The position numbers were made by a program, and so were the translations under genes. From Rubricoccus marinus (GTDB taxonomy: Bacteria; Bacteroidota; Rhodothermia; Rhodothermales; Rubricoccaceae): DNA of 64,000 bases. Each line of letters opens with the position of its first letter. The first letter of the stretch is position 1. The notes under the pieces were generated by a model that saw only the letters and a list, made by a program, of their open reading frames with translations, searched no databases and was not told the DNA's origin. Below, piece by piece: positions 49,023-55,810 of the stretch. Location: the NCBI RefSeq assembly GCF_002257665.1, contig NZ_MQWB01000001.1, positions 282,021-346,020 of the forward strand. The letters run 5' to 3'.

Positions 49023-51590
49023 ATGTCTCTTTTCCTACGCACGCTCGCCCTCGGGCTCCTCGCAGCGGTCTCCGCGCCAGAGGCCCTCGCCCAGATGGGC
49101 GGCATGGGCGCCCCGCTCGTCGGCACCGTCGTGGACGGCTCGACGGGCGAGTCCATCGTTGGCGCCAACGTCACCATCTACCAGAACGACGCGTTCCTGA
49201 CCGGCGCCGCGACCGACCTCGATGGTCGGTTCGAGATCGGCCTCCGGCCGGGCACGTACCGCGTCCGCTTCAGCTTCGTGGGCTACACCACGATTGAGCA
49301 GGAGGACGTCGCGGTCTCCGCAGGCCCGACGGACCTCGGCGTGATCCAGATGGCGCCGGACGCCGCGCTTCTCGGCGAGGCGCAGGTGACGGCCCAGCGC
49401 GAGTTCGTAGAGCAGCAGGCCGACCGCACTGTCTATAACGTGCAGGAGCAGGCGGTCACCGCCGGCGGCAGCGCGCTTGAAACGCTGCAGACGCTTCCCT
49501 CGCTCGAAGTCGACACCGACGGCAACGTCTCGCTGCGCGGCAACCAGAACGTCGCCATCCAGATCAACGGGCGCCCCGTGCCCGTGACCGGCGCGTTCCT
49601 CGCGGCGCTGCTCCGCCAGATCCCGGCGGACAAGGTGAACAGCGTGGAGGTGATCCCCAACCCCAGCGCGAAGTACGAGCCCGACGGCATGGGCGGCATC
49701 ATCAACATCAAGCTCGCCGAGGGCACCGATCGCGGCCTCTCCGGCGGCCTCACGCTCGGCGGCGGGACCGAGCCCAGCGGCAACGTCGGCGCCAACGTCA
49801 GCTACCAGCAGGGCGCCTGGGACCTCAACGCGCAGTACGGCTTCCGCTACGACGAGCGGCAGACGCTCAGCGAGTCCTCGCTGCTGCTCCGTAACGCCTC
49901 TGGCGAGACCGTCACCAACCGCAATCAGAACGGCGAGAGCGGCAACCGCAACACCTCGCACTTCCTCAACGGCTCCGCCAACTACACCTTCTTTGAGGGC
50001 GCGGACCTGACGTTCGAGGGATCGCTCGGGCTGCGCAACGGCGTCAACGACGGCTTCACCAGCTTCGACTACCTCACCGGCGGCACGGCGGACTCCCAGC
50101 GCCTGAACGACTCCAACTCCGACGGCTTCAACGGTGACGCCGCGCTCGTCTTCCGGCGCAAGTTCGTCGGCGGCGGAGGCGGGTCGCAAGCGGCCTCTGG
50201 CGGCGGCCCCGGAGGCCCCGGTGGCATGCGCGGCGGCTTCGGCGGCCCGCGCGGCGGCGGCGGCACGACGAGCGACCACGAGCTCGCCGTCGAGGCGCGT
50301 TACACGGCCAACCAGAACGACGACCTCGGCTGCTTTGCCGACGCGTTCGGCACGGTCGCGGGCAGCGACACCGGCGAGTGCTTCGCCCTCACGAACGGCC
50401 TCGCGGCACGCCAGAGGCAGAACAGCGACCAGTCCAACGATGAGGCCTCGTTCCAGGTGGACTACACCCGGCCTCTCGGCGCGCTCAAGCTCGAAGTCGG
50501 CGGTAAGGGCACGGCCGAGTGGGTCGCGAGCGACCGGACCTACGAGCGGGCCACCGGCGGCGACTTCGAGATCGACCCCGGCCAGACGAACGCGTTCGAC
50601 TACGACCGCCAGATCGCGGCCGTCTACCTCCAGGGCGCGCGCCCCGTCGGGCCGATCCAGGTCCAGGCCGGCGTCCGCGCTGAGTACGCCAAGCGCAACT
50701 TCGACCTCTTGACCGAGGTGCCCGTCACGCCGGGCATCCCGACGGTCGACGAGGACCTCGCCTCGCAGAGCTACACCAGCCTTTTCCCGAGCGTGTTCCT
50801 GTCGTACCCGCTGGCGCAGGGCTCGCTCGTCAAGGGCTCGTACACGCGGCGCATCAACCGCCCGCGCACGTTCTCGCTCAACCCGTTCCCGTCGTTCGAG
50901 GACACCACGTTCGTCCGCGTCGGCAATCCGGCGCTCAAGCCGGAGTACACGGACTCCTTCGAACTCGGCTTCACGTACAAGTACTTCCTGACCGTCGCGC
51001 CCTTCTACCGCCGCACGACCGACGCTATCAGCCGCCAGGTCTTTACCGACCCGGTGACCGGCAACCGGACGTTCACGCAGGTCAACTTCGCGACGCAGGA
51101 TTCCTACGGCTCCGACGTGACGCTCCTGGCGCAACTCGGCCCGCTCCGCGGCTTCCTCTCCGGTAGCGTGTACCAGGAGGTGACCACGGGCGAGGGCGAG
51201 AACGAGTCCGCCAGAGGCCTCACCTGGAGCGCGCGCACGAGCGTGCAGGCCAAGCTGCGCGAGGGCACGGACCTCCAGTTCTTCCTGTTCTACCGCGGCC
51301 CGTCCAACATCGTCGGCGGCAGCCGCGAGGGCTTCGGCTTCTCCACGCTGGGCCTGAACCAGAAGCTCTCGGACCGCCTCTCGCTCTCCGCGCGCCTCAA
51401 CGACGTGTTCTCGACGGCGCGCTTCCAGTTCTCGACCGACACCGAGTTCTCCCAGACGTCGTCGGTGTTCGACCCGAACATCCAGCAGGTCTCGGCCACG
51501 CTGACCTACACGTTCGGCTCCGGCCCGCAGCGCCGCCAGCCGCAACAGCAGCCGCAGGGCGACATGGGCGGCGACGGCTTCGGCATCTAG
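49023..51590 (+). CDS. TonB-dependent-receptor-like outer-membrane beta-barrel protein
   Basis: An 855-residue outer-membrane protein. The signal peptide is followed by a carboxypeptidase-regulatory-like domain (VGTVVDGSTGESIVGANVTIYQND), a plug-like domain (TVYNVQEQAVTAGGSALETLQTLPSLEVD, VNSVEVIPNPSAKYEPDGMGGIINIKL) and a long barrel ending in aromatic residues. It resembles the 'outer membrane beta-barrel protein' group rather than a classical SusC. A Gly-rich loop near residue 385-420 (GGGGGSQAASGGGPGGPGGMRGGFGGP) is odd and may be metal-binding or flexible. The ligand is unknown. Confidence 0.87.
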   Translation: MSLFLRTLALGLLAAVSAPEALAQMGGMGAPLVGTVVDGSTGESIVGANVTIYQNDAFLTGAATDLDGRFEIGLRPGTYRVRFSFVGYTTIEQEDVAVSAGPTDLGVIQMAPDAALLGEAQVTAQREFVEQQADRTVYNVQEQAVTAGGSALETLQTLPSLEVDTDGNVSLRGNQNVAIQINGRPVPVTGAFLAALLRQIPADKVNSVEVIPNPSAKYEPDGMGGIINIKLAEGTDRGLSGGLTLGGGTEPSGNVGANVSYQQGAWDLNAQYGFRYDERQTLSESSLLLRNASGETVTNRNQNGESGNRNTSHFLNGSANYTFFEGADLTFEGSLGLRNGVNDGFTSFDYLTGGTADSQRLNDSNSDGFNGDAALVFRRKFVGGGGGSQAASGGGPGGPGGMRGGFGGPRGGGGTTSDHELAVEARYTANQNDDLGCFADAFGTVAGSDTGECFALTNGLAARQRQNSDQSNDEASFQVDYTRPLGALKLEVGGKGTAEWVASDRTYERATGGDFEIDPGQTNAFDYDRQIAAVYLQGARPVGPIQVQAGVRAEYAKRNFDLLTEVPVTPGIPTVDEDLASQSYTSLFPSVFLSYPLAQGSLVKGSYTRRINRPRTFSLNPFPSFEDTTFVRVGNPALKPEYTDSFELGFTYKYFLTVAPFYRRTTDAISRQVFTDPVTGNRTFTQVNFATQDSYGSDVTLLAQLGPLRGFLSGSVYQEVTTGEGENESARGLTWSARTSVQAKLREGTDLQFFLFYRGPSNIVGGSREGFGFSTLGLNQKLSDRLSLSARLNDVFSTARFQFSTDTEFSQTSSVFDPNIQQVSATLTYTFGSGPQRRQPQQQPQGDMGGDGFGI

Positions 51591-51616
51591 CCTCTGGCGT
51601 CGCTTCCGGTTTGTTC

Positions 51617-51651
51617 GGCCTCTGGCGGCTTCCGCCAGAGGCCGTTTTTTT
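51617..51651 (+). terminator. Intrinsic terminator built from an inverted pair of motif copies
   Basis: The stem is GGCCTCTGGCG paired with CGCCAGAGGCC (11 bp, or 12 with an extra G-C), with a 3-5 nt loop, and then G and seven T. This is a canonical intrinsic terminator for the receptor gene, made from the iterated 10-mer. Confidence 0.85.
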
Positions 51652-51817
51652 GAGGCGCCGCGTTTGCGGTGGCGCCGCGGCAAGCCTCCAATGGCCGGAT
51701 AAGGGCAAGGCTTATGTGCGAAAGGTGTTTGTGCGGCGCGAGATGTGATGGCAGGGCAGAGGCCCGGGTGGTATCGTTTTGAAGCCCCGTGCCTCTAACA
51801 TCGTGACCCGCCTGCAC

Positions 51818-54800
51818 ATGTCCGTTCGATTCGCCGCCGTTGCCCTGGCGCTGCTGCTCCCCGCTCTCGCCTCAGCGCAGAGCTTGGCTGAGCAAACGGC
51901 GGTCCGCTACCTCCAGAACAACTGGAATCGCCACAGCCTCCAGCAGGCGGACGTGTCGGATCTCGTGGTCACGGACGAGGTGCCGGGGCTCAACGGGATC
52001 CAGCACGTGTACCTCCGGCAGGCCATCGGCGGCATCGAGGTCGCCAGCGGTCCGCTCTCGGTCGGCATCGACCGGCACGGGCGCGTGTTCCACGCCGCCG
52101 GCCGCCTGACCTCTGGCGTCGCGCAGAAGCGCGGGAGCGCCACCGCCTCGCTCTCGCCAGAGGCCGCGGTGATGGCGTTGGCGCAGGCCTCTGGCGTGGC
52201 GCCGCGCACGGCGTTCACGGCCGTCTCGCAGAAAGGCGGCGCCTCGCGCGAGACCGTCCTGAGCGACGGCGGCGTAACGCGCCTGCCCGTCCGCGCCCGG
52301 CTCGTCTACGCCGAGGACGGCGGACGCCTCACGCTCGCGTGGGAGACCACGCTCTTCCTCAAGGACGGCGGCGATTGGTTCGGCCACATCGACGCCGCCA
52401 CGGGCCGCGTGATCCGCATGGAGGACCGCCTGGTGAGCGAACTCTACCCGGTGCATGGCCCCGCTCCGGCCCGCGCGCCAGAGGCCAGCCGCGCCTCAGG
52501 CCCGGCGCCGATGGTGCCGTTCGCGGTCCAGGCCGCGAAGGCGCTCGCCTCTGGCGCCAGAGGCGGCGCGACGTACCGCGCCTACCCGATGCCCATCGAG
52601 AGCCCGCTCTACTCGGACCCCGTGGCGCCCGGCGACGCGCGCATCCTCATTTCGGGCATGGAGGACGCCATCGCGTCTCCCTTTGGCTGGCACGACACTG
52701 ACGGCGTGGCCGGCGCGGAGTTCACGACGACGCGCGGCAACAACACGCACGCCTACCTCGACCGCGACGACGACGAGGAGCCGGACGCGAACGGCGAGCC
52801 CGACGGCGGCGAGAGCCTCACGTTCGACTTCCCGCTGGACTTCGCGCTGAGCCCCGAACTCAACAAGGACGCCTCCGTCGTCAACCTCTTCTACTGGAGC
52901 AACATCGTCCACGACGTCATGTACCGCTACGGCTTCGATGAGGCCAGCGGCAACTTCCAGGCGAACAACTACGGCAACGGCGGCGCCGGGGGCGACGCGG
53001 TGGACTCCGAGAGCCAGAGCGGGGCGGACATCTGCAACGAGTTCAGCCCCTGCGACACCAACGCCAACTTCTCGACGCCCCCGGACGGCCAGGAGCCCCG
53101 CATGCAGATGTACATCGGCTCCAACCCGACGCCGGACATCGACGGCTCCTTTGACCACACCGTTGTGGCGCACGAATACGGCCACGGGATCTCGACGCGC
53201 CTCACCGGAGGCCCGTCCAACGTCGGCTGCCTCCGCAACGACGAGCAAATGGGCGAGGGCTGGAGCGACTTCTTTGGCCTCATCATGACGATCGAGCCCG
53301 GAGATACGGGGGCAGACCGCCGCCCGGTGGGCAACTACCTCATCGGGCAGCCGGTCTCCGGAAACGGGATCCGCTCGGCACCTTTCCAGCCGTCGCCCGG
53401 CGCGCCGTACTCCACGGACTTCTCCGTCAACTCCGCGACCTACGGCGCGACGAACGGCGGACTCTCCGCCCCGCACGGCGTCGGCTTCGTGTGGTCCCAG
53501 ATCCTCTGGGAGGTGACGTGGGAGATGATCGAGGAGCACGGCTGGGACCCCGATCTCTACAACGCCAGCGGCACGGCGGGCAACCAGATGATGCTGGCCC
53601 TCGTGATGGAGGGCCTGAAGCTCCAGCCCTGTAGCCCCGGCTTCGTGGACGGCCGTGATGCCATCCTCGCCGCCGATCAGGCGCTTTACAACGGCGAGAA
53701 CACCGAGATCCTCTGGCGCGGCTTCGCGCGCCGCGGGCTCGGCCTCACCGCCCGCCAGGGTTCCTCGGCCTCCCGCTCCGATCAGGTCGAGAGCTTTGTG
53801 GAGCCGGAGGAGAACCCGCCAGCGGCCATCACCGACCTCTCCGCAACGGCCAACGGGGACTTCGCGACCCTCCGGTTCACGGCCACTGGCGACGACGGGA
53901 CGGTCGGTACGGCAGCGGAGTACTTCGTCCGCACGAGCGCCTCGCCGATCCTGACCGAAGAGGACTGGGCGGGCGCGACGCCGCGGATGGCCACCGGCAC
54001 GCCGCAGGTTAGCGGCACGCCAGAGGCGATCGAACTCCTCGGGTTGGACTTCGCCACGACCTACCACGTCGCGGTCAAGGCCATCGACGAGAGCTTCAAC
54101 CTCTCACCGCTCTCCAACTCCGTCGAGTTCACGACGCTGGCCGCGCCGGACGTCGAGGTGGCGTCGGACGTGATCGCGTTCGAGGCCGAGGTGGGCGGCA
54201 CGGCCGAGGCCACGCTCGACATCCAGAACACGGGTGAAGGCGACCTCCGCTTTAGCCTTTCGCTCGCCGCTTCCAGCAGCGCCACCGCCCGCCACCACGC
54301 AGCCTACGCCGCTGGCGCGGCGACCCGCCTCGCGGCAGCGCCGGAGCGGGACCCGACGCCAGAGGCCAAGGAAGCCCGCCAGGCCTCTGGCGTGGCGCCC
54401 AAGAGCCAGGGCTCCGGCGGCCCCGACGCTTTTGGCTACACGTGGACGGATTCGGACGAGGCCGGAGGCCCCGCGTTCGACTGGGTCGACATCTCCGAAA
54501 CGGGGACGGCGATATCGCTCGGGGACGACGACAGCCAGCAGGTGCTGCTCCCGTTCACGTTCTCCTTCTACGGAGAGGACCAGACGGCGGTCTACATCGG
54601 CTCCAACGGCATCCTGTCTTTTGGCGCCACCGACTCGGACTCGTACACGAACGATCCCATCCCCACCGCCGACACGCCCAACGCCATGATCGCGGCGTAC
54701 TGGGACGACCTGAACCCGTCGCTCCGCGGGCGCGTCCTGCACCAGGACATGGGGGACGGCCGGTTCGTGGTGACGTACGAGGACGTGCCGCACTACAACC

Positions 54801-55810
54801 TCTCCGGGGAGGTCTCCACGTTCCAGGTCATCCTCAGCCAGAGCGGGGCCATCGTCTTCCAGTACCTGACGATGAAGGACGACGTGAGCGACCCCACCTC
54901 GCACACCATCGGGGTCGAGAACGCGGACGGCACGGACGGACTTCAGATCGTCAACAACGCCGCGTACGTCCACGACGAACTGGCCATCCGCCTCTCCGCG
55001 TTCTGGGGCGACGCCCCGACGGCCACAGGCCGGATCGCTGGGGGCGGCTCTCAGACGGTGACGCTGCGCGCGGACGCTGCCGGCCTCGCGGTCGGGGTCT
55101 ACGATGGCGTTCTCACGATCGCCTCCAACGACCCAGACGAGGCCGTCACGACCGTTCCCCTGCAGCTCACGGTGGGCAACCCGAACGCCCCGCTGGCCTC
55201 GGTCACGCCCGGCTCCGTCACGCAAGACGTGCCCCGTGGGGAGACGCAAGAGGCCACGCTCACCATCGCCAACGCTGGCGGCGTGGCGCTGGACTGGTCC
55301 CTGGCGGACGCCAGCGGCACGCTCCCGTCCTGGCTTTCTCTCAGCGCCGCCTCTGGCGAGGTCGCCCCCGGCGCCTCGGTAGACGTGACCGCCACGCTGG
55401 CCCCTGGCGTCGAGTTCAACGCCGGGAGCACGCAGACGACGACGCTCGTGCTCACGTCCAACGACCCCAACGGGACCGTCTCGGTGGATGTCTCGATGAA
55501 CGTCCTCGCAGGCGTCGCCAACGAGGACGGGCTGGACTTTGACGGGCCGTACGTGCTCAGCGAGGTCGCGCCCAACCCCGTAGGTCGCTCGGCCACGGCC
55601 ACCTTTGCCGTGCGCGAGTCGCAGAACGTGACGATCGACGTGCTGGACCTTTTGGGGCGCCGCGTGGCATCCGTCCACAGCGGGCCCGTGGCCGGGATGA
55701 CGCGGCAGGTGGTCGAGATCGACGCCTCGCGCTTGGCCTCTGGCGCGTACGTGCTGGTGCTCCGCGGCGAGACGTTCGCTACATCGCGGCGCATCACCGT
55801 CGCGCGCTGA
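51818..55810 (+). CDS. M36 (fungalysin-type) metallopeptidase with FnIII and T9SS domains
   Basis: A 1330-residue secreted zinc protease. Signal peptide MSVRFAAVALALLLPALASA, then a fungalysin-type propeptide (about 25-240), and the catalytic domain with HEYGH at residues 452-456 followed by NVGCLRNDEQMGEGWSDFF (third ligand Glu). Fibronectin-III-like segments, an HYR/choice-of-anchor type region and a T9SS sorting domain (VLSEVAPNPVGRSATATF, VLDLLGRRVASVHSG, SRLASGAYVLVLRGE) follow. It degrades proteins outside the cell. Motif copies cluster in the propeptide and linkers, sparing the catalytic core. The open frame starts a few codons earlier; I use MSVRFAA. Confidence 0.92.
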   Translation: MSVRFAAVALALLLPALASAQSLAEQTAVRYLQNNWNRHSLQQADVSDLVVTDEVPGLNGIQHVYLRQAIGGIEVASGPLSVGIDRHGRVFHAAGRLTSGVAQKRGSATASLSPEAAVMALAQASGVAPRTAFTAVSQKGGASRETVLSDGGVTRLPVRARLVYAEDGGRLTLAWETTLFLKDGGDWFGHIDAATGRVIRMEDRLVSELYPVHGPAPARAPEASRASGPAPMVPFAVQAAKALASGARGGATYRAYPMPIESPLYSDPVAPGDARILISGMEDAIASPFGWHDTDGVAGAEFTTTRGNNTHAYLDRDDDEEPDANGEPDGGESLTFDFPLDFALSPELNKDASVVNLFYWSNIVHDVMYRYGFDEASGNFQANNYGNGGAGGDAVDSESQSGADICNEFSPCDTNANFSTPPDGQEPRMQMYIGSNPTPDIDGSFDHTVVAHEYGHGISTRLTGGPSNVGCLRNDEQMGEGWSDFFGLIMTIEPGDTGADRRPVGNYLIGQPVSGNGIRSAPFQPSPGAPYSTDFSVNSATYGATNGGLSAPHGVGFVWSQILWEVTWEMIEEHGWDPDLYNASGTAGNQMMLALVMEGLKLQPCSPGFVDGRDAILAADQALYNGENTEILWRGFARRGLGLTARQGSSASRSDQVESFVEPEENPPAAITDLSATANGDFATLRFTATGDDGTVGTAAEYFVRTSASPILTEEDWAGATPRMATGTPQVSGTPEAIELLGLDFATTYHVAVKAIDESFNLSPLSNSVEFTTLAAPDVEVASDVIAFEAEVGGTAEATLDIQNTGEGDLRFSLSLAASSSATARHHAAYAAGAATRLAAAPERDPTPEAKEARQASGVAPKSQGSGGPDAFGYTWTDSDEAGGPAFDWVDISETGTAISLGDDDSQQVLLPFTFSFYGEDQTAVYIGSNGILSFGATDSDSYTNDPIPTADTPNAMIAAYWDDLNPSLRGRVLHQDMGDGRFVVTYEDVPHYNLSGEVSTFQVILSQSGAIVFQYLTMKDDVSDPTSHTIGVENADGTDGLQIVNNAAYVHDELAIRLSAFWGDAPTATGRIAGGGSQTVTLRADAAGLAVGVYDGVLTIASNDPDEAVTTVPLQLTVGNPNAPLASVTPGSVTQDVPRGETQEATLTIANAGGVALDWSLADASGTLPSWLSLSAASGEVAPGASVDVTATLAPGVEFNAGSTQTTTLVLTSNDPNGTVSVDVSMNVLAGVANEDGLDFDGPYVLSEVAPNPVGRSATATFAVRESQNVTIDVLDLLGRRVASVHSGPVAGMTRQVVEIDASRLASGAYVLVLRGETFATSRRITVAR

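Follow-up and report, generated by a model that had tools for sequence, protein, structure and literature searches.

The stretch of Rubricoccus marinus DNA analyzed here (64,000 nucleotides, the window) carries on its forward strand a gene for an outer-membrane beta-barrel/TonB-dependent-receptor-like protein of 855 aa (positions 49023-51590, with its TAG stop at 51588-51590), identified from the list of open reading frames, Pfam matches (PF14905, E 1.5e-87; PF00593; PF13620), and an ortholog with 73% identity in a genome of the same genus (G001). It is followed in the same direction by a gene for an M36 fungalysin-type metallopeptidase with an FTP propeptide (51803-55810, + strand; PF02128, E 7.2e-128), the start codon of which is approximate (~51779 to ~51820), gene calls having been made with our own simple codon model rather than with a standard gene finder. 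Between the two genes, sequence and folding delineate a hairpin on the + strand, the 5' arm of which, CGGCCTCTGGCGG (51616-51628), holds one copy of a 10-mer, GCCTCTGGCG (51618-51627), whereas the 3' arm, CCGCCAGAGGCCG (51632-51644), holds an inverted copy, CGCCAGAGGC (51633-51642). The arms enclose a 3-nt loop, CTT (51629-51631), and are followed by a tract of seven T (51645-51651), in or just past which RNA 3' ends are predicted. Read directly, the two motif copies are separated by GCTTC (51628-51632), and CG (51643-51644) stands between CGCCAGAGGC and the T7 tract. The stem (51616-51644) amounts to 13 bp, made up of both 10-mers, the flanking CG/CG, and one further G-C pair, and each arm carries an exact copy of a word that is found genome-wide. 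A third copy of GCCTCTGGCG (51590-51599, + strand) lies outside the hairpin and overlaps the TAG codon at its final base; the same overlap, in the form TAGCCTCTGGCG, is found at 54 of the 344 TAG stops in our genome sample. At 50%, TAG outnumbers each of the other stop codons in this genome, which has a GC content of 70%, and it is common in relatives too.

The hairpin by itself folds with a predicted energy of -28.1 kcal/mol, and the 70-nt region reaches -38.0 kcal/mol, compared with -24.6 +/- 3.0 in shuffles (z = -4.4). It lies 25 nt past the TAG of the beta-barrel gene, on the same strand and with the polarity correct for that gene. Positions 51616-51651 therefore combine what defines an intrinsic terminator, namely a stable GC-rich stem-loop, an adjoining U-tract, and the position and polarity of a gene 3' end, and the terminator would work one way because its 5' side has no A-run. 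Judged by sequence, the site is a canonical unidirectional intrinsic terminator. An earlier note on this DNA had described two facing copies with a stem of 11-12 bp, a small loop, and seven T, which is confirmed here with a slightly longer stem; its claim that these make a complete rho-independent terminator is well supported by the predicted anatomy, the polarity, the distance to the stop codon, and the match to a set of motif-pair terminators at other genomic sites.

The word from which the hairpin is built is exceptionally abundant. A whole-genome pattern count gave 14,176 copies of GCCTCTGGCG in the 4.43-Mb genome against 61 for the backwards control, divided nearly equally between the strands (7049/7127), with a density of ~1 per 312 bp or ~3,200 per Mb. 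In the window, the 9-mer GCCTCTGGC is found 237 times compared with 1.8 in shuffles. The 10-mer is three times denser in noncoding sequence (1 per 113 bp) than in coding sequence (1 per 374 bp), where it uses all six frames; a protein-level or codon-usage origin was rejected on the basis of this noncoding density and of the six frames, which include TCT and AGA codons. A Chi/KOPS-like strand polarity was also rejected, because strand balance was within 50:50 (chi2 16.4, 40 stretches) and the correlations of motif strand with GC skew (~-0.4) and with gene strand (~0.4) were moderate only. The copies are unevenly spread in two places. Most 20-kb stretches hold 50-90 copies, but one of normal GC content (L036, contig positions 1220001-1240000) holds 15; its genes encode MmeI-like restriction-modification, IS110 transposase, ImpB-like, and ArdC-like (anti-restriction) proteins, and it is probably recently acquired DNA. 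A second stretch with few copies (L049, 2520001-2540000) has a low GC content (61%). Literature searches yielded no relevant account of the motif, nor of iterated words of this type in the lineage.

Motif totals given here refer to the whole genome, and positional statistics to sampled sequence totaling ~0.86 Mb, together with the T-run sites that were retrieved. The sample consists of 40 stretches of 20 kb (L024-L063), which with the window make 864 kb, and an unbiased set of 36 stretches (720 kb) excludes the window and four stretches that had been shifted to take in T-run sites. In the 864 kb, the commonest inverted arrangement of the word is an abutting palindrome, GCCTCTGGCGCCAGAGGC, with 172 occurrences against 2.7 expected by random placement, and the second is an overlapping tail-to-tail palindrome, GCCAGAGGCCTCTGGC, with 126, the two forms being over-represented 45-60x. 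No excess of T-tails was found at these palindromes, TTTT being present within 10 nt in 1 of 344 strand readings for the abutting form and 1 of 242 for the overlapping form. Gapped pairs number 248 genome-wide, compared with ~150 expected from even placement and ~200 when the denser noncoding sequence is allowed for, both expectations being arithmetic from motif density; this closeness to expectation fits the recruitment of chance pairs.

Among inverted pairs at large (gaps up to 14, 864 kb), there was no orientation bias, with 71 gapped head-to-head and 66 gapped tail-to-tail arrangements, and a preference is seen only among pairs with T-tails. Genome-wide, TTTT follows within 6 nt at 17 gapped head-to-head pairs but at 2 tail-to-tail pairs (Fisher p ~8e-4, the pair total being an estimate scaled from the sample), and at 11 abutting palindromes, although the latter are ~3.5x commoner than the gapped head-to-head pairs (Fisher p ~1e-5, with the palindrome total scaled from the sample). 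Of these 17 pairs, 2 lie inside predicted genes and 15 are intergenic. The T-run points in the direction of the left-hand gene in 14 of the 15, and 13 of those 14 are within 125 nt of that gene, including 8 at 22-28 nt past the stop. The numbers of T-tailed motif-pair sites are small; for example, a 10-mer pair (gap 0-12) followed by TTTTT within 5 nt is found at only 6 places genome-wide, out of 248 pairs. Terminators make up a minority of the copies of the word and a minority even of its facing pairs.

Taken with the anatomy, stability, position, and polarity at 51616-51651, the association of T-tracts with this class of pair, which is directly observed, leads us to a reading that we regard as very probably correct, namely that the site is the intrinsic terminator of the gene at 49023-51590 and was made by recruiting a chance motif pair together with a T-tract. 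The hairpin would have its origin in the saturation of the genome with a 10-bp word: such saturation would supply ready complementary arms, with intergenic facing pairs forming at close to the rate predicted from density, and GCCTCTGGCG...CGCCAGAGGC pairs that enclose a real loop and lie ~20-30 nt past a stop would be recruited by the gain of a T-tract. As polymerase passes, the facing copies would fold in the RNA as a 13-bp GC-rich hairpin, the U7 tract would free the transcript near 51645-51652, and termination would insulate the downstream M36 peptidase gene. We infer both termination in the cell and this order of events. A rival explanation is that the hairpin is a by-product of motif saturation beside a coincidental T7, that transcription of the gene is ended by Rho or at another place, and that any role of the hairpin is limited to protecting the 3' end of the mRNA. 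This would agree with the near-expected number of gapped inverted pairs, with the intragenic location of 25 of the 57 gapped pairs that the unbiased set contains, and with the sparseness of canonical terminators, of which there are only 21 in the unbiased 720 kb. Coincidence, on the other hand, would not cluster T-tracts on pairs at terminator distance, and in the 36 unbiased stretches at least four T were present in the next 10 nt at 8 of 10 gapped pairs located 15-32 nt past a stop but at 2 of 13 pairs at other downstream distances. Together with the correct polarity of all but one of the intergenic T-tailed sites (14/15), this makes the by-product explanation improbable.

Recruitment of the word nevertheless appears to account for a minor share of terminators. 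The stem is a motif pair in 3 of the 21 canonical terminators in the 720 kb, with 1 more partial case and 2 in which the hairpin contains a single copy; the non-motif terminators have stems of ~10-14 bp and are found at similar distances, mostly 20-45 nt past the stop. Motif-supplied hairpins thus appear to be co-opted as terminators on a small scale. Such double use of iterated words is known from other bacteria, and the earlier note was right that uptake sequences of Neisseria and Haemophilus double as terminators, as described by Kingsford et al. 2007 (PMC1852404), who found the word in 54-57% of Neisseria terminators and in 16-29% of those in Pasteurellaceae, counted 226 +- pairs versus 5 -+ pairs in N. 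meningitidis Z2491, and proposed that word pairs had been co-opted as terminators by point mutation. The suggestion in the same note that the R. marinus word has this dual use is borne out in part, by the head-to-head orientation and by T-tails polarized with genes, for a small subset of pairs only (~3/21 terminators); it does not extend to the bulk of inverted pairs, most of which are abutting palindromes without T-tails. As in Neisseria and Pasteurellaceae (PMC1852404), an iterated word of ~10 bp forms stems from facing pairs in one preferred orientation, with T-tails that follow gene direction. Unlike in those groups, the share of terminators appears smaller here, abutting palindromes dominate, and only T-tailed pairs show a preferred orientation. 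Flank counts also indicate that GCCTCTGGCG, unlike the neisserial and pasteurellacean words, has no built-in A/T-rich extended motif, and the T-tract would therefore have been acquired separately. What sets the recruited pairs apart from the bulk of inverted pairs is that they are looped, in one orientation, 20-30 nt past a stop, and T-tailed, and they would show that an iterated DNA word has been recruited as a terminator independently in another phylum.

The word does not extend to relatives. In G001, GCCTCTGGCG is at background (99 copies vs 101 for the control), and of 296 genomes sampled throughout the phylum, only that of R. marinus has it in anything close to this abundance. Relatives instead over-represent other words of 8-9 nucleotides, GCTGGCGG in G001 (8,020 vs 1,599 for the control) and G007 (7,454 vs 2,023) and CCGAGGCGG in G004 (4,084 vs 459), as well as in G006 and G008, a distribution that is not simply genus-wise (G007 vs G004, G006, and G008). 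Shared ancestral motif sites were considered and rejected: none of 108 aligned sites is intact in G001, most having at least two differing positions or being gapped, and the motif copies therefore postdate the split, either as new sites or through turnover. At the end of the G001 ortholog of the beta-barrel gene, the stop is followed directly by a pair of that genome's own word, and there is another hairpin as well; these hairpins are differently built and lack a T-run, and the terminator is therefore not conserved in form. Pairs of a genome's own word followed by TTTT were not found in G001, G007, G004, or G006, and one was found in G008. Because such sites are almost absent in these relatives, recruitment appears to be peculiar to this species or to the longer word that it carries.

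The larger puzzle is the motif itself, with ~14,000 copies in one species and other words in the family. One possibility, which we put forward tentatively, is that it serves as a DNA-uptake sequence of which each species has its own dialect, its use in terminators being secondary, as in Neisseriaceae. The length and density of the word, its near-equal strands, and its use of six coding frames are all consistent with uptake, as are the depletion of the motif in the normal-GC island L036 with its restriction, transposase, and anti-restriction genes, and the presence of ComEC in all six genomes tested, although ComEC is widespread and was also found in 10 of 14 control genomes. The different words of relatives resemble the DUS dialects of Neisseriaceae, where different words are over-represented within one family (PMC3630211); compared with these dialects, the words here are more divergent, far denser in this species, and not simply genus-wise, the last two points counting against uptake. 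The copy number is also far above that of known uptake sequences, whether the range of 927-1,965 per genome in PMC1852404 or the values of up to 4,265 given in PMC3630211. Inverted copies here often overlap or abut, the abutting palindromes greatly exceeding expectation, whereas neisserial pairs do not overlap (PMC3630211). The alternative is that the motif is an iterated word resembling cyanobacterial HIP1, maintained independently of uptake by a methyltransferase, a repair system, or a DNA-binding system, and merely reused by terminators. Like HIP1 (PMC4390886), the word is very dense and spread genome-wide on both strands in coding and noncoding sequence, its ~3,200 copies per Mb standing beside high-frequency words that number ~500-2,500 per Mb, and alternative words are found in relatives as in some cyanobacteria; the surplus of abutting full palindromes points the same way. 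The core of HIP1, on the other hand, is palindromic and tied to known methyltransferases (PMC4390886), whereas GCCTCTGGCG is an asymmetric 10-mer for which no methylome or cognate enzyme is known. By analogy, maintenance of this kind is a reasonable candidate, but one to which we would not give even odds, and we consider it and uptake about equally likely.

More speculatively, a family outside Proteobacteria and Cyanobacteria may keep species-specific words of 8-10 bp (GCCTCTGGCG; GCTGGCGG; CCGAGGCGG) by uptake or another form of self-recognition, and the word of its most saturated species may be starting to supply terminators. A dense species-specific motif alongside other words in relatives offers a tractable system for studying how such words spread and change. 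In our sample of the R. marinus genome, variants of the 10-mer are over-represented as well, namely GCCGCTGGCG (296) and GCCTCTTGCG (142), and the former, which is similar to the word of G001, could be a relic or an intermediate form.
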